Source of the DNA: Adhaeribacter aerolatus
GTDB taxonomy: Bacteria > Bacteroidota > Bacteroidia > Cytophagales > Hymenobacteraceae
DNA length: 64,000 bases
Direction of reading: 5' to 3'
Assembly (NCBI RefSeq): GCF_007991635.1
Contig: NZ_BJYS01000001.1
Location: 310,001-374,000, forward strand
The translations under genes were made by a program, and so were the position numbers. Positions 25,271 through 43,639 of this stretch are shown one piece after another; positions within the stretch are counted from its first letter, which is position 1; every line of letters starts with the position of its first letter. The notes under the pieces are model-generated. The model did no database searches, was not told where the DNA came from, and worked only from the letters and a program-made list of their open reading frames with translations.

Positions 25271-26788
25271 TTATCGGATTGACTTTTCTGGCAATTCCGC
25301 TTTAATACCTTCATCAACCGGCATTTTATCGGGGTTAGCGCCGGCATTTTGCAGCAACTGGGCTAATTGGTTTTTCATTTCTGCTACCTTGGCCGCGTAC
25401 TTTGGGTCGTTAATCAGGTTTTTGTTTTCGCCCGGATCAACGGCCAGGTGATACAGTTCTGCTAGATGTTTATCGGGGCTGCCGTCGCCGGTGGGGTAAT
25501 GCATATACTTCCATTGGTCGGTGCGAATGCCGCGTACGTTGGGCGTATACGGGAACTGCTTCTCGTAATTATATTCGTAAAACCAGGCCGTGCGCCAGTT
25601 AGCTGTATCTCCCTGCACTAAGTTCTTAAAAGATTGTCCGTGGATATTTTGCAACGCCGGAGCGCCGCATAGTTCCAGAATAGTAGGGGCAATATCCAGG
25701 GTTAAGACTTGCTTATTTACCTCCACCGGCTTATCTGCGGGCGTTAAACCGGGGTACCGAATTACCAACGGAATGCGGATACTGGGTTCGTGCATGGTGC
25801 GCTTATCTACCATGCCGTGTTCGCCGTTCAGCAAACCATTATCGGAAGTAAAAATAAAAATGGTGTTATCCAATTCGCCTTTTTCCTGCAGGGTTCGGTA
25901 AATCTCGCCTACACTAACATCTACCGAAAGAATAGTAGCCCAATAGGCCTGCACCATGTTCTGGAAATCTTTTACCGCCGCCGCCGAAGAATCCGGGAAG
26001 TTCTTCCGCCACTCGAACAGCGGGCCGTAAATGCCGTGCCAGGTAGGCCGCCGCTGAGCAATCCAGTTAGGCTTATCTTCTAAATTGAAAGCACTTTCGG
26101 GGTAGGTAATGCGGACGTTATCAAAAGCTTGGGCGTATTTGGGTTCGGGCGTGTAAAAGCTGTGGGGCGCTTTATGGCCCAAAATGAGCATAAACGGTTT
26201 AGCATGTTCCTTTTGTAGCCAATCGGTGGCCAATTTAGAAACTACGGTGGTGTAATAACCTTTTATCGGCTTAGCGCCTGCCCCGTTTACGTTAAATTCG
26301 GTGTCGTAATATTTTCCCTGGCCCTTGTGGGTGACAAAATAATCGAAACCGGGCCGCGGCTCGTCGTTCTCTTCGCCCATGTGCCACTTCCCGATATAAG
26401 CTGTTTCGTAACCTTGCTTTTGCAAGACGCTCGGGAAGCTGGGTAAGTTGGCGGGATACTCTGTAAAATTATTAACTACTCCGTGCGCGTGGGCATACTG
26501 GCCGCTGAGAATAGAAGCGCGGCTGGGCGAACAAAGCGAAGTAGTACAAAAATAGTTTTTAAAATTAACACCTTCCGCCGCCAGTTTATCAATATGGGGT
26601 GTTTTCAGGTGCGGATTACCGTTCACGCTTAGGGCATCCCAGCGCTGGTCGTCGGTTAAAATAAGCACCACATTCGGACGTCGCCCCTTCTCCGCAACAT
26701 TATCTTTTCCGCGGCCGCATCCAAAGCCTACTACAAATAAGATTAAACCGATGCCAAATTTAACCGCCAAACCAGTCTTTAATTTCAT
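25271..26788 (-). CDS. Sulfatase (family S1, arylsulfatase-like)
   Basis: This 505-residue exported sulfatase hydrolyses sulfate esters, most likely on a glycan. The N-terminal hydrophobic segment ends in GFGC (Cys24), a weak lipobox, so it is either lipid-anchored or periplasmic. The formylglycine motif CSPSR begins at Cys86. Metal ligands appear in [13 protein letters not shown] and in the [14 protein letters not shown] block. It has the usual alkaline-phosphatase-fold length. The Cys must be converted to formylglycine before use, but the SUMF1-like protein encoded nearby has no cysteine and is exported, so the maturase must lie elsewhere. A terminator just upstream separates it from the DUF1080 gene, so it has its own promoter. 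Confidence 0.9.
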
Positions 26789-26828
26789 ATTGAATATTTC
26801 CTGATTAGATAATCTTAAAAGTATGATT

Positions 26829-26871
26829 AAAAAAGAACACTACCGGTAGCCAAGTAGCTGCCTACTACCGG
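26829..26871 (-). terminator. Rho-independent terminator of the DUF1080 gene
   Basis: Read on the minus strand: CCGGTAG (26871-26865), a 15-base spacer, CTACCGG (26849-26843), then a TTCTTTTTT tail, 22 bp after the DUF1080 stop. Confidence 0.7.
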
Positions 26872-26892
26872 AAATAAACCGAAATAAAATAA

Positions 26893-27594
26893 TTATTCCT
26901 GTAAATCGGCAGGTAATTCTTTGATGGCAATATTCCGGAACCGATGCTGGGCACCGGGTGCCCAGGAATCCAGAATATTCCAGCCCAGTTCTGCGGGCGA
27001 ATACAAGGTAGTCCAGTGCGATTGAAAACCAATCATGCCGGTAGTGACACCGGCGGTAAAATCATTCTTGGGTTGCTTAACGTCCCACATCTGCTCGCCA
27101 TTAATCCAAAGGGTAATATGCGGAATATCCCCTACCATGCGGATCCGAAAGGAATTCCAGTCGTTGGGCCGCCATACTTTAGCCCGGTCGGTAGCTTGCA
27201 TGCTTTTGCTTACCGGCATCCGCTCGCCCAATAAATTGCCCGTACTGTTGGCGGCATCATCCAGTTCAATCTGGTAAGCAATGCCGCTTTCGGAGGAGCG
27301 GATAAATATACCGCCGTTGGTAAAAGAATCAATTTTCGCTTCGAGATACAATTCAAAATTCTTGTATTTCTTATCCGATAACAACACGCCGCCCTGGCCG
27401 AATGGCTGCTGCGTAAGGACGATGGCGCCATCTTCTACCCGAACATCTGGTGTGGTGCCCTGGTGCGTGGTGCGGCTGATGTGCCAGCCTTTTAAGTTCT
27501 TGCCGTTAAATATCTGTTTGAAGCCAGCCGGGATTTGGGCCATTGTGCAGTTGGTTAGCAGCAAAAGAATAAGCAGGTTCAGGAGTAGTTTCAA
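26893..27594 (-). CDS. DUF1080 / 3-keto-disaccharide hydrolase domain lipoprotein
   Basis: A 233-residue exported protein made almost entirely of the DUF1080 (PF06439) concanavalin-like fold. It has FKQIFNGKNLKGWHISR, VEDGAIVLT, KYKNFELYLEAKI, NGGIFIRSSESG and NSFRIRMVGDIPHITLWINGE. Some members of this family cleave 3-keto-glycosides. The signal sequence ends in LTNC (Cys16), a plausible lipobox. The only start upstream of the signal is TTG at 27594; no in-frame ATG exists before a stop, and the next Met (residue 18) would remove the signal peptide. It sits in the minus-strand run containing a haem dehydrogenase, which could supply 3-keto substrates (inference). Confidence 0.83.
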   Translation of the reverse strand: MKLLLNLLILLLLTNCTMAQIPAGFKQIFNGKNLKGWHISRTTHQGTTPDVRVEDGAIVLTQQPFGQGGVLLSDKKYKNFELYLEAKIDSFTNGGIFIRSSESGIAYQIELDDAANSTGNLLGERMPVSKSMQATDRAKVWRPNDWNSFRIRMVGDIPHITLWINGEQMWDVKQPKNDFTAGVTTGMIGFQSHWTTLYSPAELGWNILDSWAPGAQHRFRNIAIKELPADLQE

Positions 27595-27734
27595 AAGCTT
27601 TTGGGTAATAATTTTAGTAATACGTTATAAGTTGTAAGTATTAAGTTACATACCTTTTTGATCGTGTCAGTTTCTGACTGGTATATATTTAAATAGGAAG
27701 TCTATGACTTCCGGAAGTTAAAAACTTCCTGTTA

Positions 27735-28403
27735 TCAAAAGACACAAGTTGCGCTTCGATAAACTTGCGCCAGGGTAGGTAAAATTTTATTTCGTCTTCT
27801 AAATATAATGTATAACAATATAATCAATAAGGCTAGAGCCAAAAGGACATATACATAATTCTTGTTAACTCCCACAATATTTAATTCTCCTGTCTCCAAA
27901 TCGACTGCCCAAGTGTTAGAATCCCTTGTGTTGATAATCAACTGCTGGGCGGCTCCATTTGCGTAGTGATAGCCTTTATCGTCCAGCCATAACTGGTGGG
28001 AAGAGGTCTGTTGAAGAACCGATATAGGTATGCCAAACTTATCACCTGTGATTATGATGGGAGTTCTATTTCTTCTGTATACTTCTACTACTGGTGAATC
28101 AGAGTAGTACCAGTAATTAACATAGGAGAAGTATTTACCATTATTAGACAGCTTGCCTTCAGGATATCCAGTTGGGTTAATTTGCTGCTCCCAAAGCTCG
28201 GTACTATCCTTTGTGTAAACTGTTAATGCCCACTTACGCTCCCAAGGTGATTTTGTGGTATCATTGTCACCAAAGTGAATCCAAGAGAAGATGCCCCCGT
28301 TTTCAGATACTATCTTATATGGAGTCCAAGAGGGAGGCTCATCAGCATATGCCTTCACTACAAGGAACATCAGAGTAAAAAGTACAGAGAGGGCATTCTT
28401 CAT
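27735..28403 (-). CDS. Unrecognised exported protein with C-terminal membrane anchor
   Basis: This 222-residue protein has a signal peptide (MKNALSVLFTLMFLVVKAYA). A strand-rich periplasmic domain contains many aromatic residues (SWIHFGDNDTTKSPWERKW, YFSYVNYWYYSDSP). Near the C-terminus a single membrane helix (YVYVLLALALLIILLYIIF, about residues 184-202) is followed by RRR, placing the short tail in the cytoplasm. I recognise no family. The repeated display of short strands (ELWEQQINP, YPEGKLSNNGKYF, WAVDLETGELNIV) looks like an incomplete beta-propeller. It appears less G/C-rich than its neighbours, which may point to separate ancestry. A 51-bp gap separates it from the SUMF1-like gene. Confidence 0.65.
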   Translation of the reverse strand: MKNALSVLFTLMFLVVKAYADEPPSWTPYKIVSENGGIFSWIHFGDNDTTKSPWERKWALTVYTKDSTELWEQQINPTGYPEGKLSNNGKYFSYVNYWYYSDSPVVEVYRRNRTPIIITGDKFGIPISVLQQTSSHQLWLDDKGYHYANGAAQQLIINTRDSNTWAVDLETGELNIVGVNKNYVYVLLALALLIILLYIIFRRRNKILPTLAQVYRSATCVF

Positions 28404-28429
28404 GATTCTTTATTACCACCAACTAACTA

Positions 28430-28453
28430 CTAATAACTAATTACTAACCGCTA
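28430..28453. repeat. CTAATA-type interspersed spacer repeat
   Basis: CTAATAACTAATTACTAACC and its next bases match the repeats ahead of nuoF (48576-48600) and nuoJ (53417-53441). It fills the gap between the unrecognised membrane protein and the SUMF1-like gene. Confidence 0.6.
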
Positions 28454-28454
28454 C

Positions 28455-29273
28455 TTACTTCACCTCCATTACCAACCGGAAACCAATATCATAGCCGTTA
28501 CCGGGGCCGACAGCGTGGGTCATGTAGGTTGCGTTTTTTACATCGCCGGTAAAGGAGGCACCTTTTAGCACGTGCTCTTTGCCCAAGCGCGGTGGTTTTG
28601 GGTCGGGGAATATTTTTTCGTTGTAGTAATCCTGAACCCATTCCCACACGTTGCCCAGCATGTCGTAAAGACCCCAGGCGTTGGGTTGCTTTTGCCCGAT
28701 AGCGCTGGTGGTAGTGCCGCCTAGTACGGCCACCTTCTGAATATCAGACCAGGGAATATCGCCTTCGGCACCGGCACGAGCTGCGTATTCCCATTCAAAT
28801 TCGGTGGGCAAACGATAGCGGTGTATTTTATCCAGTTTGTTCAGCTTCTTGATAAACTTTTGAGTATCCTGCCAGGTAATATTTTCTACCGGGTGTTTAC
28901 TAGCGCCGCCTGCCATTTTACTGCCCTTAAAAAAAGAAGGATTAGTGCCCATTACTTTTCCCCATTGTTCCTGAGTCACTTCAAACTTACCAATGTAATA
29001 AGCTTTATCTAAGGTTACGTTAAAACCCGGCAGAGCGTCTTGTTTGGCCATTTCATCCGCTTTTGCATAAGCTGAGGCAGGCAAAGTTCTTCGACCGGGC
29101 GGATTGGATTTGGGCCGGCTAACGGCGGGTTGAAATTTACCTACTATCATGTTGCCCGGCTGAATCAGGACAAACTCCATGCCAACGGAATTAGTAAAAG
29201 TTGGCGCCTGCGCCAGCAGCGTCGTACCTGTGAGTACCCAAAATAAGAGCAGTGCTAATATTTTTTTATGCAT
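28455..29273 (-). CDS. SUMF1/FGE-fold exported protein lacking catalytic cysteines
   Basis: This 272-residue protein has a signal peptide (cleavage after TTLLAQ, about residue 22) followed by the formylglycine-generating-enzyme-like fold. It shows NSVGMEFVLIQPGNMIVG, FEVTQEQWGKVMGTNPSFF, PVENITWQDTQKFIKKLNK, YRLPTEFEWEYAARAG, WGLYDMLGNVWEWVQDYY and a final IGFRLV. True FGE enzymes use two cysteines near the C-terminus; this protein has no cysteine anywhere, so it cannot mature sulfatases. Exported homologues are common in this phylum and may act as binding or structural modules. The next gene upstream encodes a haem dehydrogenase, 138 bp away. A CAAAGCTA at 29289-29296 (TAGCTTTG on the minus strand) may be a -7 element. 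Confidence 0.85.
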   Translation of the reverse strand: MHKKILALLLFWVLTGTTLLAQAPTFTNSVGMEFVLIQPGNMIVGKFQPAVSRPKSNPPGRRTLPASAYAKADEMAKQDALPGFNVTLDKAYYIGKFEVTQEQWGKVMGTNPSFFKGSKMAGGASKHPVENITWQDTQKFIKKLNKLDKIHRYRLPTEFEWEYAARAGAEGDIPWSDIQKVAVLGGTTTSAIGQKQPNAWGLYDMLGNVWEWVQDYYNEKIFPDPKPPRLGKEHVLKGASFTGDVKNATYMTHAVGPGNGYDIGFRLVMEVK

Positions 29274-29353
29274 GATTTAAAATCAATCCAAAGCTAATTA
29301 TCTCTATTACCAGATTTACAGGATAATACATATATATAAATCAACCACCCCTA

Positions 29354-29375
29354 CCCCTCCTAATCTTAGGAGGGG
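29354..29375. repeat. Short interspersed hairpin
   Basis: CCCCTCCTAA, TC, TTAGGAGGGG: a 10-bp perfect stem, preceded by ACCCCTA. It lacks a clear T tail on the minus strand after the dehydrogenase gene, so it is grouped with the G/C-run repeats, though it could slow transcription. Confidence 0.55.
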
Positions 29376-29410
29376 AGCTTTCGGCTTATGGTTAAAGCTG
29401 ATTATTCGGT

Positions 29411-31729
29411 CTACTTTTCTTCTACAAAGTTGCGTTTGGTATTGCGGTAGCCTTTGTGTACTTCCAGTTTCTGCATGGTTTCGCCGCCGGGGGTAAGTTG
29501 TTTAATGCTTGCCCGTACTTTCTTCACCTCTTCCGGGGTAATAACCGAAGCATTATTGCCGAGTTCACTGCTGTTCCGCACATAACTCAATACCGAAGCA
29601 ATCCATTCGTCGCTTTGGCCGGCCATAGATGGCATTACATCCGGATAGGTTTTCCCGTCGATGGGGCCTTTTAAGCCGTGCAGCATTATTTCGATGGGCA
29701 CAATTTTATCGGTATCACTCATGCGGGGCGATTTATACAAGGGCGGCGCCATCATGGGGGCACCGGCAATAATACGGCCTTTACCATCGGAGCCGTGGCA
29801 GTTGGAGCAAAGCTGCTTAAAAATAACGGATCCTTTCTGCACCAATTCTCTTTCTTCCGGACTAATATTTTTAACTCTTTCGCGCTCGGCAGCCAGCATT
29901 TTTAAGGTTTGCTCATGCGATTTGTAAGACATCTGCATCAGTTCGTTATTGGGGTTAGCCGCTAATAAACTGGTTAGCAAAGCCTGGGTAGCCGGCGTTT
30001 TATGCGTCCGCAACGATAAACTCAGTTGCACCCGCACATCCGGACTGGAATCGTTCTCCAGGGCTTTCAGTTTTTCGAGTACCTCCGCATCGTTTTGTTT
30101 CAGATACATTTCGCTGATCCAAACGGCGGTTTTTCTTATTTGTGGTTCTGCATCGGCCAAAGCCTGGAACAACAAAGGCTTATCCAGGGCGTTCAATCCT
30201 TCCAACGTCCAGAGGGCATGAATGCGGGCCAAGTGGCTGGGTTTCTTCTTCAGCGGTCCTTTTTCGCCGCGGGCTATTTGCTTTAAAGCCGGCACTACTG
30301 ATTGGTCGTTGCGCACCACCAGCAAGAGTTGGGCATTGTCGCGCCACCAGCCGTTGGGGTGATCTAAATAAGTAAGCAGTTTGGCCGCCGGTTCATTCAG
30401 CATATTGGGCCGGGTTTTATCGGGTTTAATATCTTCGTGTACCACGCGGTAAATGCGTCCCATGCCCCGGTTTTTGTACAGTTCTTTTTCTTCGATTATT
30501 TTGCCCAGGTAGGTACCCGGTCCGCTCCATTCGCTTTCCTGAATAATGCCGTGATACATATCTACAATGTAAAAAGTACCATCCGGGCCGGTGTAGGTAT
30601 TCATGGGCCGGAAATTAAAGTCAGCGGAGGCCAGCCAATCTTTTTTCTCGTAAACGTCTTTTAGAATTATTTTCCCGTTTTCGTTCGTAACCCGGCCGCG
30701 CTTAATAATACGGCCTACCGGCTCCGGAATAAAATAATCGCCCTGCATATCAGCGGGCAGGCGGTCGCCCCGGAAAATAGACTGGCCAGCGCCCGAGGTG
30801 AAACGGTTGAGGGTATTATCTTCGGGGCGCAGGGCACTAGGACCACCCTGGGCATCGAGGTTGCCAATAATGGGCCAGGGCACCATAAACTCAGGCGCGA
30901 ATTGGTCTTTAAAATTTAAAGCACCGTAAGCCGGCATCTGCTGAATTTGCACAGCCGGCAAACCCGGACCAGCTTCCGAGAAAAACAAACGACCGTAATT
31001 ATCGGCGGTAATTCCCCATTGGCCGGTCATGTTATCAATCATGGTATCGGCCACCATTACGCCATTCTGGTATTTGTACCGAAATTTATCGCGGGTCGGG
31101 TAAATCCAGTTATCGAGGTTCCACATCATGCCGCCATTCTGGTGTTCTACGTTGCGCAGGTCTATGGCATCATTCTTAAAAACGATTTTCTTCTGGTCGG
31201 CTTTGCCGTCGCCGTTCGTATCCCGGTAACTCCAGATATGCTGAATATTGGTAATTGTTACCAGTAATTCATCGCCAATGGGCAAAACGGTGCGGGGCAA
31301 TAACAGGCTGTCGATGAATATGGAAGATTTATCCATTTTACCGTCGCCGTCGGTATCTTCCAGTAGTTTAATGCGGCTGGTGGGTTCAAATTGACCGGTA
31401 GCTTTAGAATCTTTCATGTAGGTGTTCATCTCCACTACGTACAGGCGGCCATTGGCATCCCAGGCCATACCTACTGGTTCCTGTACCATCGGTTCGGCGG
31501 CTACCAGTTCTACCCGGTAACCGGGCGGCAGTTGTATTTTCCGCATACTTTCTTCCGGCGAAAGCGGGATTGACGGCGGATTTTTATCTACCACTACGCG
31601 TTCGAAAGGCGGCTCGACTGTATTTTTTTGGGGAACGTTGCAGAAACCGGTCAGCAAGGCAAAAGAGATAATACCAACTACAACTCCGCCTCTTCTTATT
31701 TTTGCTTTTTTATTAGATTTACTATTCAC
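29411..31729 (-). CDS. PVC-type haem-binding membrane dehydrogenase with HEAT repeats and cytochrome c domain
   Basis: A 772-residue exported oxidoreductase. After a basic N-terminus and one hydrophobic segment (about 15-30), residues about 50-400 form a sugar-dehydrogenase-like beta-propeller (GYRVELVAAEPMVQEPVGMAWD, DGTFYIVDMYHGI). The propeller carries two EF-hand-like calcium motifs, DTDGDGKMD and DTNGDGKAD. HEAT-like repeats follow (about 440-590). A cytochrome c domain has the haem motif CSNCH near residue 640 and distal Met candidates (MMAPPLY, MPSMAGQ). The start is GTG; no in-frame ATG precedes the signal segment. It likely oxidises a sugar or alcohol in the periplasm and passes electrons to the haem. 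The substrate is unproven. It lies between the glucanases and the SUMF1-like gene. Confidence 0.8.
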   Translation of the reverse strand: MNSKSNKKAKIRRGGVVVGIISFALLTGFCNVPQKNTVEPPFERVVVDKNPPSIPLSPEESMRKIQLPPGYRVELVAAEPMVQEPVGMAWDANGRLYVVEMNTYMKDSKATGQFEPTSRIKLLEDTDGDGKMDKSSIFIDSLLLPRTVLPIGDELLVTITNIQHIWSYRDTNGDGKADQKKIVFKNDAIDLRNVEHQNGGMMWNLDNWIYPTRDKFRYKYQNGVMVADTMIDNMTGQWGITADNYGRLFFSEAGPGLPAVQIQQMPAYGALNFKDQFAPEFMVPWPIIGNLDAQGGPSALRPEDNTLNRFTSGAGQSIFRGDRLPADMQGDYFIPEPVGRIIKRGRVTNENGKIILKDVYEKKDWLASADFNFRPMNTYTGPDGTFYIVDMYHGIIQESEWSGPGTYLGKIIEEKELYKNRGMGRIYRVVHEDIKPDKTRPNMLNEPAAKLLTYLDHPNGWWRDNAQLLLVVRNDQSVVPALKQIARGEKGPLKKKPSHLARIHALWTLEGLNALDKPLLFQALADAEPQIRKTAVWISEMYLKQNDAEVLEKLKALENDSSPDVRVQLSLSLRTHKTPATQALLTSLLAANPNNELMQMSYKSHEQTLKMLAAERERVKNISPEERELVQKGSVIFKQLCSNCHGSDGKGRIIAGAPMMAPPLYKSPRMSDTDKIVPIEIMLHGLKGPIDGKTYPDVMPSMAGQSDEWIASVLSYVRNSSELGNNASVITPEEVKKVRASIKQLTPGGETMQKLEVHKGYRNTKRNFVEEK

Positions 31730-31780
31730 AGTACTTTAATTTATTTCATTTAAGTGTTTTTCAGGCTTGAGTACTTACCT

Positions 31781-33139
31781 TTATTTCAGGTGCGGACTTT
31801 GGAAGCCCAATTTTTTCAGGCCAGTTTGAATTTCGGGTGCGCTCATAAATAAATTCCAGAGCAAACCGCTACGGTGGTTTTCCATCATAACCACAATTGG
31901 ACCCTGGTCGATGGCGAGGTATTTTTGGGGGTACCAGTTATCGGTTTGGCTAAAGGCATCATAAAAGCCATACGGCCCCCAAACTTTGTCATTCAGGTTA
32001 TTATACCAATATTTCATGGCCCGGATAGATTGCTCCGGGGTATAGGGCATCGACGACAAAGCCGCCGTTGGGGAAATTACGCCCAGGTCCCGCTCTTCAT
32101 CGGGGCCATGAGCCGAGTATCCCTTTACCGAATAGCTGGCGGTAAGTCCCCAGTTATTCGGGCCGTAGCCTGTATATTTCTTAGGGTTTTGGGCACACCA
32201 GGTATAATTAATAAGGCTCTGATTTTTATTTTCCTCCCAGTAGTCGGCGTACTTATCTTTTAGGCCCCGGGGGTCTAAGCCCAGATAAGAATAATGGGCC
32301 CAGAAAAGCGGCCCGCCATTTTTTTGGGTGCCCTGATGCTTTAGTTGCAACTTATAGCCAAAACCCTCGGAGGGCGAAACAATTTTACCATTCTCGGCCC
32401 AGCCCTGGTGGTAAACTTCGGCCGGTACCCCGTGGGTAGGAGAAGAAGCCGCCAGCACGTACATAATCAGGCATTCGTTGTAGCCCCGCACCGCAAAATT
32501 CATGTCCCAACCGTAATTCGGACTCCAGTGCCAGTACAACACATTTTCGTTATCTTTTCGGTACCAGTTAAAATCAATGTCTTTCCATAGCTGGTCGGCG
32601 CGGGCGGCTAACTGTTTTTCTTCGGCATTGCCGTCTTTAAAATATTGCCGCACACATAATAAGCCCTGGGCCATAAAAGAAGTTTCTACCAAATCACCGC
32701 CATCGTCTTTCTTACTAAAGGGCTTTACTTTGCCGGTTTCGCCGTTCCACCAATGCGGCCAAGCCCCATGAAAACGATCGGCTTTTTCGAGGAAAGAAAT
32801 AATTTTCTGCAGCCGGGCTCTACCTTGCTCCCGGGAAATAAATTTCCGTTCCATGCCTACTAAAATGGCCATTACCCCAAAACCTCCACCGCCGGAAGTA
32901 ATAATGTGTTTGTCGTTTTGGGGATAATCACCATCTACGTGGTAGCGCTCGCGGGCTAAGCCGGAATTGGGCTCGGCCCCGTCCCAGAAATAATTAAAAG
33001 TTTGCTTTTGCACCAGCGTCAGCAATTCATCATCGCTTAACTTTTTAGTACTGCCGGCAGTGGAAGTCTCGCCCGGCTTTTGGCAGCTCCAGAAACTTCC
33101 GGTTAAAAAGATTACAACTAGTAAAATATATTTCTTCAT
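31781..33139 (-). CDS. GH144-like endo-beta-1,2-glucanase, lipoprotein
   Basis: A 452-residue lipoprotein with a signal peptide ending in WSC (acyl-Cys about 19). The whole mature part is the glycoamylase-like (alpha/alpha)6 domain (PF10091 type) found in GH144 endo-beta-1,2-glucanases. Key blocks are LLTLVQKQTFNYFWDGAEP, GGGFGVMAILVGMERKFI, RFHGAWPHWWNGETG, GGDLVETSFMAQGLL, WHWSPNYGWDMNF and the final YLAIDQGPIVVMMENHRSG. It probably cuts beta-1,2-glucan into short sophoro-oligosaccharides at the cell surface or in the periplasm. It is a close relative of the next gene upstream, 44 bp away; the pair looks like a tandem duplication. The GH144 assignment is by motif recall, and other related glucosidase families are possible. 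Confidence 0.78.
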   Translation of the reverse strand: MKKYILLVVIFLTGSFWSCQKPGETSTAGSTKKLSDDELLTLVQKQTFNYFWDGAEPNSGLARERYHVDGDYPQNDKHIITSGGGGFGVMAILVGMERKFISREQGRARLQKIISFLEKADRFHGAWPHWWNGETGKVKPFSKKDDGGDLVETSFMAQGLLCVRQYFKDGNAEEKQLAARADQLWKDIDFNWYRKDNENVLYWHWSPNYGWDMNFAVRGYNECLIMYVLAASSPTHGVPAEVYHQGWAENGKIVSPSEGFGYKLQLKHQGTQKNGGPLFWAHYSYLGLDPRGLKDKYADYWEENKNQSLINYTWCAQNPKKYTGYGPNNWGLTASYSVKGYSAHGPDEERDLGVISPTAALSSMPYTPEQSIRAMKYWYNNLNDKVWGPYGFYDAFSQTDNWYPQKYLAIDQGPIVVMMENHRSGLLWNLFMSAPEIQTGLKKLGFQSPHLK

Positions 33140-34884: not shown

Positions 34885-34966
34885 AAGCTGCGGGGTAGCT
34901 AAACTTAATAATGCGGCTACCAGTAATTCGGGCATAAGGCCCAACATTTAGTAGCCGCATTTGTCC

Positions 34967-35857
34967 TTATTTTTTAGCTTTTCCTAAATTGTACAGGCTG
35001 CGGATATGGGCATCCGGTAAATTAATATTGTATACCCGTATTTCGTCTATCCGGCCAGTCATCGGGGCAAAGTTTGCGTCGGTATTTACACTTTTACCGG
35101 GTATGCTGTTATAATTGGCTCCAATAATTACTTCGCTGGGTTCGTATGCTTTAAACAAATTATTGCCTACACCCCGGTTCGGGAAACCGCCTACTTTTAC
35201 ACCATCGGCCCAAATATTAAAAACGCCGGAAGCCCCGTCGTACGTAACCACAATGTGCGTCCATTTATCGGCTCCTATTTTAGGCGATAAATTATTATTC
35301 AGGTTATCCTGCGTGCCGCCGCCCACGGTATTAAAAGTAGGTTGGATGCGCAAAATATCGGTATTAGAAGCTGGGTTGGCATTGGTATTTAAAGCCAGGT
35401 TTATATTGCCGTTGAACATACCAGGCCGGGCCAACTGAAAAGTCATGGTTCTTTTGGAGCCATTATTCAGAATTTGTACCCAGTGGCTTATGGTAAAACT
35501 TTTTAACTTATCAGTTTTAAAGTTTTCGAACTGTTTGGCATAGTACAACCAGCCTCCATTTAAATTCAGGGCCTTACCTCTTACGCCGCCTTCCACAAAC
35601 GAATCATTAGCCGTAGAAGTAGGCGCTGTATTGCTGATAGTCTCATTCTTGTTGTCGTCGAAAGACCAGTAAGCAATCAGGTTATTCGGGTAAATTTCTT
35701 CTGAACTGGTGTAGCCATCAATTTTACCTTCGTAATCCGCCGGACTGACGTCAGCCAGGTTGTTAGGATTGCCATCGTATTCGCAGGACGACAGGATAGT
35801 TGCCGCCAGGGCTATACCCAGGCAGCAATTTTTTATATATAAATGGGAGAATTTCAT
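34967..35857 (-). CDS. LamG/concanavalin-like surface glycan-binding lipoprotein
   Basis: A 296-residue lipoprotein with lipobox LSSC (acyl-Cys about 25). A short N-terminal linker (residues about 25-60) leads into a LamG-3 jelly-roll: LIAYWSFDDNKNETI, GGVRGKALNLNGGWLYY, KSFTISHWVQI, DKWTHIVVTYDGASGVFNIWADG, FAPMTGRIDEIRVYN and the final IRSLYNLGK. It occupies the slot right after susD, where SusE/SusF-like surface glycan-binding proteins are usually encoded. It probably helps hold the polysaccharide, and no catalytic residues are apparent. It is separated by 33 bp from susD and read in the same direction. Confidence 0.82.
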   Translation of the reverse strand: MKFSHLYIKNCCLGIALAATILSSCEYDGNPNNLADVSPADYEGKIDGYTSSEEIYPNNLIAYWSFDDNKNETISNTAPTSTANDSFVEGGVRGKALNLNGGWLYYAKQFENFKTDKLKSFTISHWVQILNNGSKRTMTFQLARPGMFNGNINLALNTNANPASNTDILRIQPTFNTVGGGTQDNLNNNLSPKIGADKWTHIVVTYDGASGVFNIWADGVKVGGFPNRGVGNNLFKAYEPSEVIIGANYNSIPGKSVNTDANFAPMTGRIDEIRVYNINLPDAHIRSLYNLGKAKK

Positions 35858-35890: not shown

Positions 35891-37438
35891 TTAATACCCT
35901 GGATTTTGCTTCAGCACGCCTTTACTCAAATCAATTTGCGTTTGCGGAATAGGTAATAAAATATCCCGGTTCTCATTAAAATTGGTTTTACCGGCGGCCC
36001 GCAATACCGGACCGGCAATACCCCAGCGAACCAAATCGAAAAAGCGGTCGTGCTCCATGGCCAGTTCAACGCGGCGTTCATGGCGGATAGCCTCGCGTAA
36101 TTCAGCTTGGTTGGTAGTAGTAATCGGTGGCAGAATGGAGCTGTTGCCGGCTCTGGCTCTGGCCCGCACCATTTCTAATTTTGCCAGGGCTTCGGCGGTA
36201 TTTCCCAGTTCGTTGGCGGCTTCGGCATACATCAGCAACACATCGGCGTAACGCAGCACCCTTACATTAAACCAATGCCCAAACCGGTTATTCACCGCAG
36301 CCCTGCGAGCCGGATTGGTATAAACTTTATGGTTGTAGCGCGGGTTAGGTAAGCCCAGCGGAGTTTTTTCTCCGTAAATGGTTAATCCTTCGGTGGGACT
36401 GGTCGTTTTACTCGTATACAAAATGGTTCTGGTTCGGCGCGGGTCGCCGGGCTCGTAGGCAGCTTCCAGGTTTTCGCTGGGGGTGTTCCAGCCCCAGCCC
36501 AAATCCCAGGTACCAGTTCCTCTTACGCCTTGAACCTGGGCGTATTGCACGCCATTGGCATCCGGAAAAGCGGGACTGCTGGTTGCCTGTACTTCAAACA
36601 CCGATTCGCTGCTGTTCTCGCCTTCTTCTCTGAATAACCGGTCGTAAGAAGGATTTAAACTATACTGACCAGAAGTAATAACGGCATTAGCCGCCGCTAG
36701 GGCTGGCGCCCATTTCCGCTGAGTTAAATAAACTTTGGCCAGTAAGCCATTAGCAGCTCCCGAAGTAGCCCGGCCCACAAAGGCAGGCGACCAACTCATG
36801 GGTAAACTGGCAGCGGCAAACTTTAAATCACTTTCGATTAAGGCATAAACCTGTTCGGGCGAGCTTTGCGGCACATTGGCTTGCGCTGCCGGATCGGCAA
36901 ATACCTGATCGATGAGCGGCACCTGGCCAAATACCCGCACCAGCATGAAATAAGCATAGGCCCGGATAAATTTTGCTTCAGCTTCGGACTGTACTTTTAT
37001 TTCAGGAGTAGCCACAATGGCTTCATTATTGGCCACCTGGTCTAAAACAATATTTGCTTTATTCACCAAATTAAAATAGCCTGTCCACATGGCATTGGCA
37101 AAGCCATTGTTTACTGCCACCGGAAAGTTATCCATATCAATGGCATTGGCCCCACCATCGGCCGGGGTACTACCCTTGTCAGCATCGTCGCTGCGAATGC
37201 TGGTAATGGCAATAAACGATTGACTGTGCACATTAAAATCGCGCAGGCTGGAGTAGGCGCCAAAAATATACTGGTCGTAAGGCCCGGAACCACCCGGATA
37301 CGGATAATTGTCCTGGGTATACTGGCCTTGCGGGGCGCGGTCTAAAAAATCCTTGTCGCACGACACCAACGTAGAAACAACCGCCAGCAATAATAGGACG
37401 ATGCTGTTAGGCCGTGGAACTTTATTAAATAATTTCAT
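35891..37438 (-). CDS. SusD/RagB-family glycan-binding lipoprotein
   Basis: A 515-residue lipid-anchored surface protein. The lipobox is LVSC (acyl-Cys about 27), followed by the typical CDKDFLDRAPQGQYT. TPR-like helices include EAEAKFIRAYAYFMLVRVFGQVPL. The C-terminal half has VLRYADVLLMYAEAANELGNTAEAL and IRHERRVELAMEHDRFFDLVRWG, and the end is LKQNPGY. It caps the SusC transporter encoded 20 bp upstream. With the downstream LamG and GH144 genes it would bind beta-1,2-glucan fragments (inference from context). Confidence 0.94.
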   Translation of the reverse strand: MKLFNKVPRPNSIVLLLLAVVSTLVSCDKDFLDRAPQGQYTQDNYPYPGGSGPYDQYIFGAYSSLRDFNVHSQSFIAITSIRSDDADKGSTPADGGANAIDMDNFPVAVNNGFANAMWTGYFNLVNKANIVLDQVANNEAIVATPEIKVQSEAEAKFIRAYAYFMLVRVFGQVPLIDQVFADPAAQANVPQSSPEQVYALIESDLKFAAASLPMSWSPAFVGRATSGAANGLLAKVYLTQRKWAPALAAANAVITSGQYSLNPSYDRLFREEGENSSESVFEVQATSSPAFPDANGVQYAQVQGVRGTGTWDLGWGWNTPSENLEAAYEPGDPRRTRTILYTSKTTSPTEGLTIYGEKTPLGLPNPRYNHKVYTNPARRAAVNNRFGHWFNVRVLRYADVLLMYAEAANELGNTAEALAKLEMVRARARAGNSSILPPITTTNQAELREAIRHERRVELAMEHDRFFDLVRWGIAGPVLRAAGKTNFNENRDILLPIPQTQIDLSKGVLKQNPGY

Positions 37439-37458: not shown

Positions 37459-40400
37459 TTAAAATGATGCATTAATACCAAAAGAATAGATGGCTGGTAC
37501 CGGGAAGGTTCCGTTATCGGCACCGCTGGCAATAGGGTCGGCCAAAGAAGCCTCCGGCGTATAACCCGAAGTGCGGCTGAAAGTAGCTATATTTTGGCCG
37601 CTGATAGACAAACGCAGTTGCTTTATGCCTACTTTATTCATGCGCTCAGACTGGAATGTATAGCCTAATTGCACAGTACGGAAGCGGAAATAATCGCCGG
37701 GTTCCAGGAAATAACTGCTGAACAGGTAATTATTCGCGCGGGTATTATCCAGAATAGGCTCAATGTTGCTGGTACCGGGTCCGCTCCAGGCATTTAGGCG
37801 GTTGGTTTCGTAATTCAGGGTAGCAAAAGTAGCCGTGCGACGTTGGGTATAGACCTTATTACCGGCTACGCCCTGTATTTCCACGAGCGCATCAAAGCCT
37901 TTGTAGCCCGCCGAAAAAGTACTGCCAAAGTTCCAATTCGGAAAAGGTGTGCCTAAGTAACCGCGGTCAGCAGGAGTTATTACGCCATCACCGTTTTTAT
38001 CAGCGTAAGCAATATCGCCGGGCAGCGAATTAGTAAAACTGGGTTGTTTGTCTAAATCGGCGGTAGACTGGTAAATACCCACCTGCTCGTAGCCATAGAA
38101 AAACCCGATAGACTGGCCGGTTCTGGTAACGTTAACCCCGCCATTACCTAATATTTCGAATTCCAGGTTAGGCCCGATAGATTCTACTTTATTTTTGTTG
38201 TAGCTAAAATTAGGCGAGATGCTGTAGGTAAAATCATCACCTATCTGGTCATTCCAGCCCATCGACACCTCAATACCCCGGTTACTGATATTACCCAGGT
38301 TGGTGCGATAGGTATAATTACCGGCGGTACCCGGCAAGGTTAAAGAAGTTAGGATATCTTTAGTGGTCCGGTCGTAGAGGGTAACTTCGGCATTAAACCG
38401 GTTGTCCAGGGCGCGCAAATCTAAACCCACATCAATCCCGCGGACTACTTCCCAATGCAGATTAGGGTCGGGTACATAAGCCGGCGAAACCGAAGTATTT
38501 ACATTTTCGCCGAACACCGCTCTATCTGAAGTAACTAAACCAGGTAAATAAAGGTTTGCCGGCAAACCTAAACCACTACCTACGGTACCCCAGGCAGCAC
38601 GTAGTTTTAAGAAGTCAAAAGGATTTATGTCTTGGAAGAAGCCTTCGTCGCTTACCACCCAGCCTAAACCAACGCTACCAAAATTACCCCACCGGTTGCT
38701 CGGCGAAAACTTAGAACTGCCATCGCGGCGGAAAGTAGCATTTACTAAATATTTACCAGCAAAAGAATAATTTATTCTACCTAAAAAAGACATGTAAGAT
38801 TCTTCGCCGCCGCTGCCGCTGTTATTCAACGGCATCGATGCATCTGCTACATTCAGGTACCAGAAGTTACGATCACGCGGAATATTCAAAGTAGTATCGC
38901 GCCGCATGCCCGAAAGAAAGGTACTGCCGTTAAATAAGGTGGTAAACCCTACCAGGGCCGTTACGTTGTGCTTTTCGTTAAAGGTTTTGTTGTACGTTAA
39001 GGTATGGTCCTGCTGAAATTTCCGGAACTGTTGCTGCGTTTGGGAAACGCTGGTCCGGACAAGTGCATCGTAGGTGGTATCGGTAGCCGCCGTACCTTCG
39101 CCCAGGTTTATAAAACGGTTAGCCAGGGGGCTGTAACTCCGCAAGTTATTAAAGCCCAAATCGGTATATACCGAAGAACGAACCGTGAAATCTTTTAAAA
39201 ATTTAACTTCGGCAAACAAACTGCCAACTACCCGGTAGCCCTGATCAACCGCATTGCCGGTATTCCGGTTTAAGCTGGCAATAGGGTTCCCTACCTGCGC
39301 CCGCTGGAAAGAAGGCATGCTGTAATACAAGTTTTCGCTGGCCTGTACCGGCACAATAGGTGCCGCCCACAAAGCATTGTTCAGGCCTACACCTGGGGCC
39401 TGCTGCCGCCAGTGAAAGCCGGTAAGATCGCCGCCTATTTTAATATTTTGATTAATTCGGATCTCCTCATTAATCCGGGCGACAAACTTTTTGTAGTTAT
39501 TGTATTTTACTACCCCTTCCTGCTCATTATACCCTAAGTTTATCAGGGTAGAGCTTTTTTCGCCGCTGTTTGAAATACTCAAACTGTTGTTGGTAATCAG
39601 GGCATCCTGAAAAATTAAATCTTGCCAGTTGGTGTTACCGGTATAACTGGTATAATCAAAAGGTGCGGCTCCCAGGTTGGTTAACTGGGCATCATATAGC
39701 CTTCTAAACCCGCCGGCATCTACCACATCAATTTTTCTGTTAACCCGTTGCACGCCAACGGAACTCTGGAAATTAATCCGGGTTTCGCCTTTGGCGGCGC
39801 GTCTGGTAGTTACAATAATAACGCCATTCCCCCCCTGCAAGCCAAAGATTGCAATAGAGGAAGGGTCGCGGAGAACTTCCATACTTTCAATATCCGCCGG
39901 GTTCAGGTAATCGATGTTGGTCTGAAAAACACCATCTACCACGTAAAGCGGGTTGGTGTTGCTGGTACTGTTTACCCCTCGGATACGTACAGTTGGGCTG
40001 GCACCGGCCTGTCCGCTGTTGACAACCGTTAAACCAGCCACTTTACCTTGTAAAGAAGATAAAGGGTTTACATTAGGCTGCTTGGCAATCGACTCTCCTT
40101 CTACCGAAGTAATAGAACCGGTAAGGTCTCTTTTACGCTGCACACCATAACCTACTACCACCACCTCTTCCAAGGCTTTTGCATCGGTAGCCAAACCTAC
40201 ATTTATAGTAGTACGATTATTAATAGCTATTTCCTGGTCTACAAAACCCAGGAAAGAAAATACGAGGGTTCCAGTAGCCGGTGCCGATACGGTATAGGTT
40301 CCTGAAACATCAGCAACACCACCAGAAGTGGTGCCTTTAACTTGTACAGTTGCACCGGGCAGTGGGTCGCCGGTGGCAGCATCTGTAACTTTGCCTGTTA

Positions 40401-40476
40401 TGGTAATATTTTCCTGCGCAAAAAGCAGGTTTACCGTAAACAAACAAAACAACAACATTAGGGTTCTTTTCATCAT
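37459..40476 (-). CDS. SusC/RagA-family TonB-linked outer-membrane transporter
   Basis: A 1005-residue transporter. Signal peptide MMKRTLMLLFCLFTVNLLFAQ is followed directly by the carboxypeptidase-regulatory-like domain (ITITGKVTDAATGDPLPGATVQVKG, about 24-105). The family signature LEEVVVVGYGVQRKRDLTGSI comes next, then the plug (NPLYVVDGVFQTNIDYLNPADI, FGLQGGNGVIIVTT) and a barrel ending INASF. There is no STN domain. It imports oligosaccharides released by the surface glucanase with its SusD partner. The 253-bp gap upstream holds the promoter and separates it from the regulator gene read in the same direction. Two adjacent ATGs (40476 and 40473) make the exact start uncertain by one residue. 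Confidence 0.94.
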   Translation of the reverse strand: MMKRTLMLLFCLFTVNLLFAQENITITGKVTDAATGDPLPGATVQVKGTTSGGVADVSGTYTVSAPATGTLVFSFLGFVDQEIAINNRTTINVGLATDAKALEEVVVVGYGVQRKRDLTGSITSVEGESIAKQPNVNPLSSLQGKVAGLTVVNSGQAGASPTVRIRGVNSTSNTNPLYVVDGVFQTNIDYLNPADIESMEVLRDPSSIAIFGLQGGNGVIIVTTRRAAKGETRINFQSSVGVQRVNRKIDVVDAGGFRRLYDAQLTNLGAAPFDYTSYTGNTNWQDLIFQDALITNNSLSISNSGEKSSTLINLGYNEQEGVVKYNNYKKFVARINEEIRINQNIKIGGDLTGFHWRQQAPGVGLNNALWAAPIVPVQASENLYYSMPSFQRAQVGNPIASLNRNTGNAVDQGYRVVGSLFAEVKFLKDFTVRSSVYTDLGFNNLRSYSPLANRFINLGEGTAATDTTYDALVRTSVSQTQQQFRKFQQDHTLTYNKTFNEKHNVTALVGFTTLFNGSTFLSGMRRDTTLNIPRDRNFWYLNVADASMPLNNSGSGGEESYMSFLGRINYSFAGKYLVNATFRRDGSSKFSPSNRWGNFGSVGLGWVVSDEGFFQDINPFDFLKLRAAWGTVGSGLGLPANLYLPGLVTSDRAVFGENVNTSVSPAYVPDPNLHWEVVRGIDVGLDLRALDNRFNAEVTLYDRTTKDILTSLTLPGTAGNYTYRTNLGNISNRGIEVSMGWNDQIGDDFTYSISPNFSYNKNKVESIGPNLEFEILGNGGVNVTRTGQSIGFFYGYEQVGIYQSTADLDKQPSFTNSLPGDIAYADKNGDGVITPADRGYLGTPFPNWNFGSTFSAGYKGFDALVEIQGVAGNKVYTQRRTATFATLNYETNRLNAWSGPGTSNIEPILDNTRANNYLFSSYFLEPGDYFRFRTVQLGYTFQSERMNKVGIKQLRLSISGQNIATFSRTSGYTPEASLADPIASGADNGTFPVPAIYSFGINASF

Positions 40477-40729
40477 AAGATTATCGGGTGGTTAACAAAT
40501 AATGACCAAATATTTATTATTATACCCCCAAATCCCAAAAAGGGTCCACTACATCACTACATCAAAATTTCTTTAGCTGCACTTTTTATTTTTTCTTTAA
40601 ACTTTTGCTTTAAACGTTAAATATTTTTTAAATACTTGAGCCTATAATTAGGCATTTTGCACCCGTCGAAGCCATTTGAGAAAGTAATTCTACGGCTATG
40701 AGAGGTAATGATGTAGTACTCAAAACCGC

Positions 40730-43639
40730 TTAAAGCTCCAGTAAAAACTCTACTAAGTTCTTCTCGTGGTCTAAATTCAGTTTCTTACGCAGCCGGTAGC
40801 GCCGAATTTCTACGCCCCGTACGGTAATATTAAGTAAGGAAGCGATCTCTTTACTACTCATATTCATGCGCAGGTAAGCACAAAGTTTCAGGTCGTTGGG
40901 GGTTAGTTCGGGGTGCCCCAAGCGTAGCTTCTTAAAATAATTTTCGTGGGCTTCGTTAAAACTGTTTTCGAGTAAATTCCAATCCCGCTCATCATTTTTA
41001 CCTTCGTCGATTACGCGCTGAATTTTACGGAGCTGATCGGCGGCAATCTTTTTGCCGGTTGTATCATTTAATTGAATTATCTCTTCCTGAATATTTTGCA
41101 GCAATTCGTTTTTGTAAACAATATTTAAAGCCGAGTTGGCTAATTCGCGGCTCTTACTGGCTAAGTCGGCCTGCAACTGTTCATTTTTCAACTTTACAAT
41201 TCTTTGTTCATTCAGTATAGCCTCCTGGCGCAGCACTTCTTCTTTTTCTTTTTCCAGTTTCTGCTGAATGCGCTGCTGGTCACGTCGCAGTTTTTGCATA
41301 TACCAATATTTAATTAAGCAGTAAAAAATTACCAGCAGAATAAAGTAGCCCACCCAAGCCCAGGCGGTAGCATACCAGGGTGGCGTAACTACAAAAGTAA
41401 AAACAGTTATGGCTGATTCTGTTTTACCGTTCAGTTGAGCTTTTACCAGAAACCGGTAATTTCCGTAGTCTAAATTGGTAAAATCTTTACTGGTTTCGGT
41501 ACTCCACTCCGACCATTGCCCGGAATGCCCCTCCAGAAAATAACTGTATTTTACTTTAGCCTGATTGTAGTAAGGCAAGGCATAAGAGATGCGCAGATTA
41601 TTATGAACAAAGGGAATCTGAACCCGGTTTTTATTATTCTCGGTGATAAGGACTGTCTTGTTTGTTATATTTTCAACCTTCCGAATCAGGACGGTTGGTA
41701 AGGCCTGTTTCGGTTTGGTAATGGTCTTTGCATTATAAAAAACAAAGCCATCGTCTACGCTTATTAAATAAATATCCTTATTTATCCGGCTGATGTTTTC
41801 ATAAAACTGCACCATGCGCCCATTTAAAATATCGAAAGGATTGGTTTTAATATTTAGTTTTCCGGGCTGGGATAAATCTGCCAGTGCCACTTTGCCGTGG
41901 TTAATAAACCAATATTTTGTATCATCGGCTTTTATTATCTTGTTTGATGATGCAAAATCACCTAATTTCTGATTTAATTGCGTGTAAGGGTAAAACTGGT
42001 CGTTTAGGGCATCGTGCACGTAAAACCCAGCTGCCGAAGAAAACAGCAGTTGCCCATTGAGTTTAAAAATATTGAGATTAAAATTTCCGGGCAGCCCTTG
42101 TTGCTGACTATATAGGGTAGTACTTTTCAGTTTTTTTAAGTCTTCGGTGAGGGTAAGCCGGTACAAACCCTGGTAAGCATGGCTCACCCAAATATTCCCT
42201 TTTTCGTCCTGCTCTACGTACAGCGAAGGCTCGTTAAACTCCGGTATTTTGTGGCTGAATACCCAGTTACCCGCAGGGTCTTTTTTATAAATGACCAACC
42301 CGGTGTAAGTGCCTTGTATTAACAGATTTGGGTTCGCATATAATTTATTAATACCCCAGCCCCCTTTCACATCCGAAATGCGGCTCATTTTATTACCCGT
42401 AACCAGGAAAGTACCTTCGTTGTGGCCGCAAAGCAGTTGCCCATCCTGCACCGATAAATGCCACACCTGCCCCTGCGAACCCGGTACCAGGCTAAAATCG
42501 AAAGCATGGAAAGAATGATTATGATTGCTAGGCCACTCGCTGTAAAACAAACCCTGATTGGTGCCCAGGTAAATTTTGTTTTCGTGCACCAAACTGGCGT
42601 AAACAGTACCAAACTTACCGGTTTGGTCGAAATAAAAATATAACGGCGAATTTACTTCTATCCGGTCAATACCATTATCCAGGGCGGCCCACAAGTTTTG
42701 TTCGTTATCGGTGTATAAGCTCAGCACCGTATTATTCTGGAGGCCGCTCGATTTATTCAGGCGCTGCACCAGGCGACCTGCTTCATCCAATATAACCACC
42801 CCGTTCAGGATAGTACCAAAGGCAAAATATTTACCCAGCACCAGGGCGCCGTTGTTTAGCTGGTAGGTTTTCAGAAAACCATCGGCCTGGTTCTGCCAAG
42901 GTGTAATGTTTTTACCATCGAAGAGAAAAAGCCCGTTCTTGGCCGTACCAATCAGGAACTTACCGTGGGGGAAAGGCAAAACCGAAAGTACGCCGGAATT
43001 ACCCAGCAGGGTACTGGCAGAAATAAAATGGAGCGAATCACCTTTTAACTCATAAAGTCCTTTTGAAATAACTTCTACAAAAAAGCGGTTGCCGGCTTTA
43101 AATAAAAACAGGAACGGCTGACCCGACGTAGAGGCACCGGCCCTTAAAACTTTAATTTTGCCTTTTTCATAAATAAAAATGGAGCCAAACGACTGAAACA
43201 GCACCCGCTCGCCGTCCACATATATTTTCCAGATTTCGTCGGTTGGCCGTAAGTGCCGGGGCAGCAGTTTTACAAGGGAGTAGTAAGTAAATTTACCGGC
43301 CTGGTTATAAGCCCAGTAACCAAATTCACTAAAACCGCCGGTGTAAATACGCCCATTGTTATCAGTAGCCACGGCTCTTACAATCTGCTGATTAGGCAAC
43401 TGGTAGAGGTTCCAGTATTTGCCATCAAAAGCCAGCAACCCATCGGAATTACCGAAATACATGATGCCGTTTTTATCTTTTACCGCCGCCCAGTTTTTAT
43501 TACCGGCCAGATAAGATTGTTTAGTGTAATTTTGCACATAGGGCACCCCAATGTTTTGCATATCAGCCGCCAGTAAAGCCGTCAGGGGTAGTTGGGTAAG
43601 AGCAAAAAGGAGAAAAAGGAATTTAATTATATTACTCAT
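40730..43639 (-). CDS. Membrane-spanning beta-propeller/Y_Y_Y sensor with LuxR-type HTH (SusR-like regulator)
   Basis: A 969-residue single-polypeptide sensor-regulator. A signal peptide (about 1-25) precedes two-component-regulator-type propeller repeats (DGKYWNLYQLPNQQIVRAVATDNNGRIYTGGFSEFGYW, then many similar blades to about 660). A Y_Y_Y domain follows (about 680-760: VKYSYFLEGHSGQWSEWS, LDYGNYRFLVKAQ). A single membrane helix (WAWVGYFILLVIFYCLIKYWY, about 772-792) leads into a long coiled coil (about 793-850) and a C-terminal LuxR/GerE-type HTH (ELTPNDLKLCAYLRMNMSSKEIASLLNITVRGVEIRRYRLRKKL). There is no histidine kinase or receiver, so it is not a hybrid two-component system. It would sense glycan in the periplasm and activate susCD downstream from the membrane. 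Confidence 0.85.
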   Translation of the reverse strand: MSNIIKFLFLLFALTQLPLTALLAADMQNIGVPYVQNYTKQSYLAGNKNWAAVKDKNGIMYFGNSDGLLAFDGKYWNLYQLPNQQIVRAVATDNNGRIYTGGFSEFGYWAYNQAGKFTYYSLVKLLPRHLRPTDEIWKIYVDGERVLFQSFGSIFIYEKGKIKVLRAGASTSGQPFLFLFKAGNRFFVEVISKGLYELKGDSLHFISASTLLGNSGVLSVLPFPHGKFLIGTAKNGLFLFDGKNITPWQNQADGFLKTYQLNNGALVLGKYFAFGTILNGVVILDEAGRLVQRLNKSSGLQNNTVLSLYTDNEQNLWAALDNGIDRIEVNSPLYFYFDQTGKFGTVYASLVHENKIYLGTNQGLFYSEWPSNHNHSFHAFDFSLVPGSQGQVWHLSVQDGQLLCGHNEGTFLVTGNKMSRISDVKGGWGINKLYANPNLLIQGTYTGLVIYKKDPAGNWVFSHKIPEFNEPSLYVEQDEKGNIWVSHAYQGLYRLTLTEDLKKLKSTTLYSQQQGLPGNFNLNIFKLNGQLLFSSAAGFYVHDALNDQFYPYTQLNQKLGDFASSNKIIKADDTKYWFINHGKVALADLSQPGKLNIKTNPFDILNGRMVQFYENISRINKDIYLISVDDGFVFYNAKTITKPKQALPTVLIRKVENITNKTVLITENNKNRVQIPFVHNNLRISYALPYYNQAKVKYSYFLEGHSGQWSEWSTETSKDFTNLDYGNYRFLVKAQLNGKTESAITVFTFVVTPPWYATAWAWVGYFILLVIFYCLIKYWYMQKLRRDQQRIQQKLEKEKEEVLRQEAILNEQRIVKLKNEQLQADLASKSRELANSALNIVYKNELLQNIQEEIIQLNDTTGKKIAADQLRKIQRVIDEGKNDERDWNLLENSFNEAHENYFKKLRLGHPELTPNDLKLCAYLRMNMSSKEIASLLNITVRGVEIRRYRLRKKLNLDHEKNLVEFLLEL

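Follow-up and report, generated by a model that had tools for sequence, protein, structure and literature searches.

A probable beta-1,2-glucan utilisation locus of Adhaeribacter aerolatus with a candidate oxidative block in the place of its GH3 enzyme

The glycosidic bonds of a few disaccharides and plant glycosides are known to be cleaved by oxidation and elimination. For this route, genetic evidence in other bacteria indicates that DUF1080 proteins act together with a 3-dehydrogenase, and the lactose 3-dehydrogenase LacABC requires three components (PMC9007349). The hydrolytic systems closest to the locus described here combine GH144 and GH3 enzymes. The catalytic and clan residues of the GH144 enzyme CpSGL are E142, E211, F268 and Y330 (PMC12102758), and the GH3 enzymes BT_3567 and Lin1840 are characterised sophorose-hydrolysing enzymes (PMC12369401). 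Our literature search on the biochemistry of DUF1080 eliminase/hydratases found indirect papers only, and that on the activity of DUF7133 or PVC-type haem-binding proteins found none reported.

We analysed a window of 64,000 nucleotides from Adhaeribacter aerolatus (contig NZ_BJYS01000001.1, positions 310,001 to 374,000); the host is a soil bacterium. The window contains a SusC/SusD cluster whose GH144 endo-glucanases carry the CpSGL residues, and the same cluster in relatives keeps a GH3 similar to BT_3567 and Lin1840. The difference from the GH144 and GH3 systems is that here the GH3 is gone from both the cluster and the genome, and a putative oxidative block stands in its place. In common with the pathway of LacABC and DUF1080 proteins such as BT2157, the locus encodes a putative redox protein along with a DUF1080 protein that is exported and shares the fold. 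However, the linked redox protein is a DUF7133-cytochrome c and not LacABC, and the identity of the DUF1080 protein to BT2157 is about 28% when structure-aligned residues are counted.

Gene content and substrate of the cluster

The cluster is an 18-kb run of genes, all on the minus strand, and every gene named for it in the first-pass annotation is an intact open frame at the positions given below. Domains were assigned by Pfam and NCBIfam profile searches. The run begins with a membrane-anchored Reg_prop/Y_Y_Y/HTH regulator (40730..43639; PF07494 and PF07495, with weak PF08281/PF00196), and regulators related to it (58-60%) accompany the cluster in comparison genomes G002 and G116. It is followed by a SusC-type TonB-dependent transporter (37459..40476; TIGR04056, E=4.6e-239), a SusD-type glycan-binding lipoprotein (35891..37438; PF07980, PF14322) and a LamG/concanavalin-type surface glycan-binding lipoprotein (34967..35857; PF13385), the last of which is missing from many relatives' clusters and so is not core. 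The run has the composition of a polysaccharide utilisation locus: a SusC gene next to a SusD gene, enzymes that act on glycans, and a regulator. A promoter scan of the cluster found sites no more frequently than in shuffled sequences.

Two glucanase genes come next. Copy g (33184..34947; PF10091, E=9.1e-74) has an N-terminal Big_5 domain, and it matches the PDB entries 4gl3 (E=6e-161) and CpSGL 5gzh (E=1.7e-146). Copy f (31781..33139; PF10091) is CpSGL-like, matching 5gzh/5gzk at E about 3e-225. In alignments to 5gzh, both copies keep the equivalents of E142, E211, F268 and Y330, and the two enzymes first described as GH144-like are GH144 proteins by profile and by residues. Because both glucanases are of GH144 and carry the four CpSGL residues, the SusC/SusD cluster is, on sequence grounds, very probably a beta-1,2-glucan locus, as had been proposed.

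At the other end of the run lies an S1 sulfatase (25271..26788; PF00884, E=1.8e-64; PF16347) with the motif CSPSR, which fits the type I sulfatase pattern CxPSR. Among the compared clusters it occurs only in G000, G019 and G126, with a distant one (38%) in G116, and by gene content the sulfatase is accessory, not core. The first-pass annotation had paired it with the exported SUMF1-fold protein (28455..29273; PF03781, E=1e-34), whose nearest PDB entries are 2y3c, FGE and PvdO, and this pairing found no support. A formylglycine-generating enzyme needs a catalytic cysteine pair near its C terminus, and the window protein has no cysteine, nor is any conserved across 21 aligned sequences. The SUMF1-fold protein is also present in clusters without a sulfatase, and on both counts a role as sulfatase maturase was ruled out. 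Between it and the DUF1080 gene lies a small orphan gene that the first-pass annotation had passed over (27735..28403); it encodes an exported protein with a C-terminal membrane segment, for which no Pfam or NCBIfam match was obtained and no counterpart was found in the 38 block loci searched.

The missing GH3 and its association with the block

In A. rhizoryzae, Pontibacter and Botryobacter, a sophorosidase-type GH3 that matches BT_3567 (5xxl, E=1.7e-274) and Lin1840 (4zoa) is located between the second GH144 gene and the haem protein gene. Cluster comparison shows that the corresponding slot in the window is a gap of 51 bp (31730..31780), which is too short to hold GH3 remnants. The earlier observation that no GH3 lies downstream was thus borne out, and the whole genome also lacks an ortholog of the relatives' cluster GH3. 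A genome-wide beta-glucosidase search, performed family by family and covering GH1 and GH3, found four GH3 proteins, three of NagZ type (motif KHFPGHGDTDxDSH) and one divergent protein of 686 aa, and no full-length GH1 but five weak partial matches only. An assembly error was ruled out: the genes on either side are intact, the GH3 is likewise missing from another Adhaeribacter MAG, and the same absence is seen in assemblies that are nearly closed, namely G002 (one contig), G003 (three), and G014 and G024 (two each).

We define the block as the genes for the DUF7133-cytochrome c, the SUMF1-fold protein and the DUF1080 protein, and a GH3 as linked when it lies within 12 kb of GH144. Among 150 genomes of the family Hymenobacteraceae, 69 have GH144; the GH3 is linked in 61 of these, unlinked in 2 and absent in 6. 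All six GH3-less genomes have the block beside GH144, while none of the 55 GH144 genomes without the block lacks GH3 (Fisher p=2.5e-5, the six GH3-less genomes being related and five of them belonging to one genus). Each of the 14 block-carrying genomes of the family has it beside GH144, counting the MAG G034, where the contig ends and shows no block gene but the haem gene, adjacent to GH144. The tree of the haem protein places the GH3 absences in three distinct clades, and since every one of these also has a GH3-bearing genome, at least three transitions took place. The genus-mate G009 carries both, with the GH3 downstream of its block, which shows that one does not exclude the other. On sequence evidence, the association at the family level suggests an oxidative substitute for the beta-glucosidase.

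The association is not upheld as a general rule at the order level. Of the 117 GH144 genomes from the rest of the order, 59 have no GH3 at E<=1e-200, and the block too is missing from nearly all of them (for example, from 22 out of 22 in genus g58). A missing linked GH3 therefore needs no oxidative substitute there. The block was also found in three genomes without a GH144 match (G421, G423 and G456), and many block loci have no linked GH144; the block is therefore not specific to beta-1,2-glucan, and its substrate may be something else.

Folds and possible roles of the block proteins

The first block gene (29411..31729) encodes a quinohaemoprotein-like lipoprotein with a DUF7133 propeller, HEAT repeats and a cytochrome c domain (PF23500/Piru_Ver, PF13646, PF00034, TIGR02604). 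Its haem motif is CSNCH, and the CxxCH residues C641, C644 and H645 are invariant in 36 sequences, as in a c-type cytochrome. The best match of its AlphaFold model, whose pLDDT falls under 50 within stretches of residues 231-315, is the PQQ sugar dehydrogenase 3a9g (Z 20.3, rmsd 3.3, 271 aligned), which indicates a six-bladed propeller, a fold that is common to non-dehydrogenases too. The Z-score is about 17.6 against the AA12 structures 6i1q/6jt5, and similar values were obtained for HHIP and DFPase, neither of which is known to be a redox enzyme. The likeness to the PQQ sugar dehydrogenases and the AA12 pyranose dehydrogenase lies in the propeller, which the fungal AA12 enzyme, too, combines with a haem domain in a single chain. 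The features that differ are the HEAT and class-I cytochrome c domains at the C terminus here and the lack of detectable sequence similarity, since the propeller profile gave only chance-level matches against PDB sequences. Of the first label, haem dehydrogenase, the haem motif and the modelled PQQ-dehydrogenase-like propeller stand, while the word dehydrogenase is a guess from the fold.

The third block gene (26893..27594, TTG start) encodes a DUF1080 protein of the 3-keto-disaccharide hydrolase type (PF06439 '3keto-disac_hyd', E=1.6e-34; 120 bits against a cut-off of 26.8). Its identity to those other DUF1080 proteins of the window genome that were compared does not exceed 30%. Its model matches BT3469 4jqt (Z 22.9) and the 3-keto-glycoside eliminase/hydratases 9fbe (Z 20.6, rmsd 2.1 over 170 residues) and 8tda (Z 18.8, rmsd 2.3 over 172 residues). 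The modelled fold, which is that of known eliminase/hydratases, agrees with the earlier proposal of a candidate 3-keto-glycoside-cleaving enzyme.

In G153 and G201, two genomes from this order, the block's neighbour is a GMC and Gluconate_2-dh3 pair that resembles lactose 3-dehydrogenase, and this pair is therefore another candidate for the C3-oxidase. The window genome has four Gluconate_2-dh3 loci, one of them with an 85% relative of that GMC; neither the window cluster nor any other locus tested has such a pair close to the block.

Alternative explanations and a proposed route

The reading that we prefer, at about even chances, is a beta-1,2-glucan locus in which the periplasmic block performs the final splitting of sophorose and short oligosaccharides, the task of GH3 in most relatives. 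Sensing would fall to the regulator, binding and import of the glycan to SusC/SusD together with the LamG protein, and the two GH144 enzymes would cut it to sophorose and short oligomers, a step strongly indicated by their family and residues. Oxidation of the non-reducing glucose at C3 might follow, carried out either by the DUF7133-cytochrome c or by a GMC/Gluconate_2-dh3 complex whose genes lie elsewhere; in the latter case the haem protein could be the electron carrier. From its modelled fold, the DUF1080 protein would eliminate and hydrate the 3-keto-glycoside to glucose and 3-keto-glucose, with the electrons passing to the respiratory chain.

The variant in which DUF7133 is an electron-transfer or binding protein, and the unlinked complex is the oxidase, has clearly less than an even chance. 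The neighbouring pair in G153 and G201, the Gluconate_2-dh3 loci of the window genome and the three components needed by LacABC (PMC9007349) favour it, while the best structural match of the propeller and the absence of the pair near the block elsewhere argue against it. We hold as doubtful, and as somewhat less probable than this variant, the stronger proposal that the DUF7133-cytochrome c represents a new class of periplasmic glycoside 3-dehydrogenase, which with the DUF1080 eliminase/hydratase and the SUMF1-fold protein as helper replaces a glycoside hydrolase and sends electrons straight to respiration; its mark would be the GH3 absence in most Adhaeribacter and one genome of the genus Pontibacter.

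It is unlikely, if not greatly so, that the GH3 was simply lost from an otherwise ordinary beta-1,2-glucan locus, with sophorose being cleaved by an unlinked beta-glucosidase from a different family, or in the cytoplasm after uptake, and with the block acting on something else and kept by inheritance. Such a loss would agree with the order-level genomes that often lack both GH3 and the block, with G009, with the blocks that exist without GH144, and with the divergent copy f at the junction of the lost GH3, which would fit a recombination accident. Yet within the family GH3 is absent only from block-carrying clusters, the block is always linked to GH144, and the window genome has neither a full-length GH1 nor an ortholog of the cluster GH3. 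Natural cyclic beta-1,2-glucans carry succinyl, phosphoglycerol and sulfate decorations, and it is conceivable, though improbable, that the accessory genes strip these rather than attack the backbone. The sulfatase-type phospho/sulfo-ester hydrolase here, with PehA (phosphoric/sulfuric ester hydrolase) among its sub-threshold NCBIfam matches, and the GDSL and alpha/beta-hydrolase esterases and calcineurin-like metallophosphoesterase in the Pontibacter and Botryobacter clusters point that way, but this covers the variable accessory genes and not the conserved block or its link to GH3 absence.

If the preferred reading, with the block as the splitting system, is true, this would be a polysaccharide locus in which an oxidative route displaces the standard glucosidase in several lineages. 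It would provide natural pairs, with and without the glucosidase, for testing why bacteria choose oxidative cleavage, and it would give a function to the DUF7133/PVC-type haem proteins.

Cluster genes and predicted glycan target

The cluster consists of 11 intact genes on the minus strand between positions 25271 and 43639. The contig that contains them is 480 kb long, and the assembly (6.68 Mb) has a marker-based completeness of 100%. Domain search returned every domain named in the first-pass annotation, and its description of the cluster genes is confirmed. One of the 11 genes that this annotation did not mention, at 27735-28403, encodes an exported orphan protein that has a membrane segment at its C terminus. 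It is inserted within the trio (hereafter the block) of DUF7133-cytochrome c, or haem-protein (29411-31729), SUMF1-fold (28455-29273) and DUF1080 (26893-27594) genes, between the latter two, and no match to its protein was found across 38 block-carrying loci.

Both PF10091 proteins, copy f (31781-33139; E about 3e-225) and copy g (33184-34947; E 1.7e-146), match CpSGL, the founding GH144 beta-1,2-glucanase, and the residues named for CpSGL, E142, E211, F268 and Y330 (PMC12102758), have aligned equivalents in both. Taken together with SusC (37459-40476), SusD (35891-37438) and the regulator (40730-43639), these matches and residues make it highly probable that the cluster is a beta-1,2-glucan locus, the activity being predicted from sequence. 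Another SusC/SusD pair, with a heparinase II/III-like protein encoded after it, lies at 14654-21577 on the plus strand and is a separate glycan locus.

The SUMF1-fold protein contains no cysteines and is ruled out as a formylglycine enzyme of known kind. The sulfatase (25271-26788) occurs in only three of the compared clusters, a fourth having a distant homologue. Its pairing with the SUMF1-fold protein was dropped; its substrates may be decorations that natural glucans carry. The LamG protein (34967-35857) is likewise variable, and relatives' clusters contain GDSL, esterase and phosphoesterase genes. Neither the sulfatase nor the LamG protein is core to the cluster.

Absence of the GH3 gene

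In the clusters of Adhaeribacter rhizoryzae, three Pontibacter and Botryobacter, a GH3 protein of 775-785 aa is encoded between the second GH144 gene and the haem-protein gene. That of A. rhizoryzae matches BT_3567 (5xxl) and Lin1840 (4zoa), GH3 enzymes that hydrolyse sophorose (PMC12369401). The window has only 51 bases in this slot, and no ortholog was found anywhere in the genome (best match 32% over part of the protein), which bears out the earlier observation that a downstream GH3 gene is missing. Of the four GH3 proteins that the genome does encode, three have the NagZ motif and one is divergent; in a GH1 search of the genome all matches were partial, at 27-49 bits. Copy f shares only about 70% identity with the A. 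rhizoryzae counterpart, against 82-96% for neighbouring genes, and its branch in the tree lies outside the nine other f copies of the group; the event that removed GH3 may also have replaced copy f.

GH144 was found in 69 of 150 Hymenobacteraceae genomes, with GH3 within 12 kb in 61 and elsewhere in the genome in two. The block adjoins GH144 in all six genomes that lack GH3 (G000, G002, G003, G014, G024 and G034). GH3 is kept by eight other block carriers of the family and by all 55 GH144 genomes that have no block. Fisher's test puts the association at p=2.5e-5, a value that is too favourable because one genus accounts for five of the six GH3-less genomes. In the haem-protein tree these genomes are spread over three clades, every one of which also includes a GH3 carrier, and hence at least three gains or losses occurred. 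The pattern is weaker at order level: 59 of 117 GH144 genomes of Cytophagales outside the family lack GH3 at a stricter threshold (E<=1e-200), nearly all of them without the block. GH3 absence is thus associated with the block within the family, and a linked GH3 can also be dispensed with by other means. In the Spirosomaceae-type genus g58, all 22 genomes carry GH144 and are without both the block and this GH3 (E<=1e-200); the g58 GH144 cluster inspected (locus L152, 1276-11630) is without a linked beta-glucosidase.

The block as a possible substitute

The block is a portable module, since its three genes are kept together across Spirosoma, Rhodocytophaga, Chitinophagaceae and Cyclobacteriaceae, in most cases with no GH144 linked to them. 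Within Hymenobacteraceae it is linked to GH144 in 14/14 block-carrying genomes. Among named genomes, A. rhizoryzae (93%) and a MAG of Adhaeribacter (91%) encode the closest relatives of the haem protein. In the haem-protein tree the G003 clade is closer to Spirosoma/Rhodocytophaga copies than it is to the clade of the window, a hint that the block was recruited more than once. A second DUF7133-cytochrome c gene of one genome (locus L153, 6293-12351; 51% identical) lies near a NagZ-type GH3 gene.

The DUF1080 model (pLDDT 81) matches BT3469 (4jqt, Z 22.9), the 3-keto-glycoside eliminase/hydratase 9fbe (Z 20.6, rmsd 2.1 over 170 residues) and BT2157/8tda (Z about 18.8), all of which score higher than GH16-type jelly rolls (Z about 15-16). 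For the DUF7133 model (pLDDT 74, weak in residues 231-315) the best matches are PQQ sugar dehydrogenases (3a9g, Z 20.3; AA12, about 17.6), and its cytochrome domain resembles c552-type domains. HHIP, to our knowledge not a redox enzyme, matches equally well within error (Z 19.9), and the modelled fold therefore only permits sugar oxidation.

The first-pass annotation had proposed that sophorose may be split by oxidation at C3 and cleavage by the DUF1080 protein in place of a beta-glucosidase. The link of the block with GH3 absence speaks for such a replacement within the family and weakens in the wider order, and we give an oxidative substitution about an even chance. Either the DUF7133 protein or a GMC/Gluconate_2-dh3 complex would be the candidate for C3 oxidation.

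In two Rhodocytophaga-type genomes the module adjoins a GMC oxidoreductase and Gluconate_2-dh3 pair (locus L148, 3796-6086; loci L149 and L009 likewise), an arrangement reminiscent of LacABC, a lactose 3-dehydrogenase that acts together with DUF1080 proteins (PMC9007349). The A. aerolatus genome has four Gluconate_2-dh3 loci, one with an 85% relative of this block-adjacent GMC protein. The block's DUF1080 protein is set apart from the DUF1080 proteins of the genome with which it was compared (<=30% identity), and the 23 DUF1080 matches in the genome suggest that 3-keto-glycoside chemistry is widely used in A. aerolatus.
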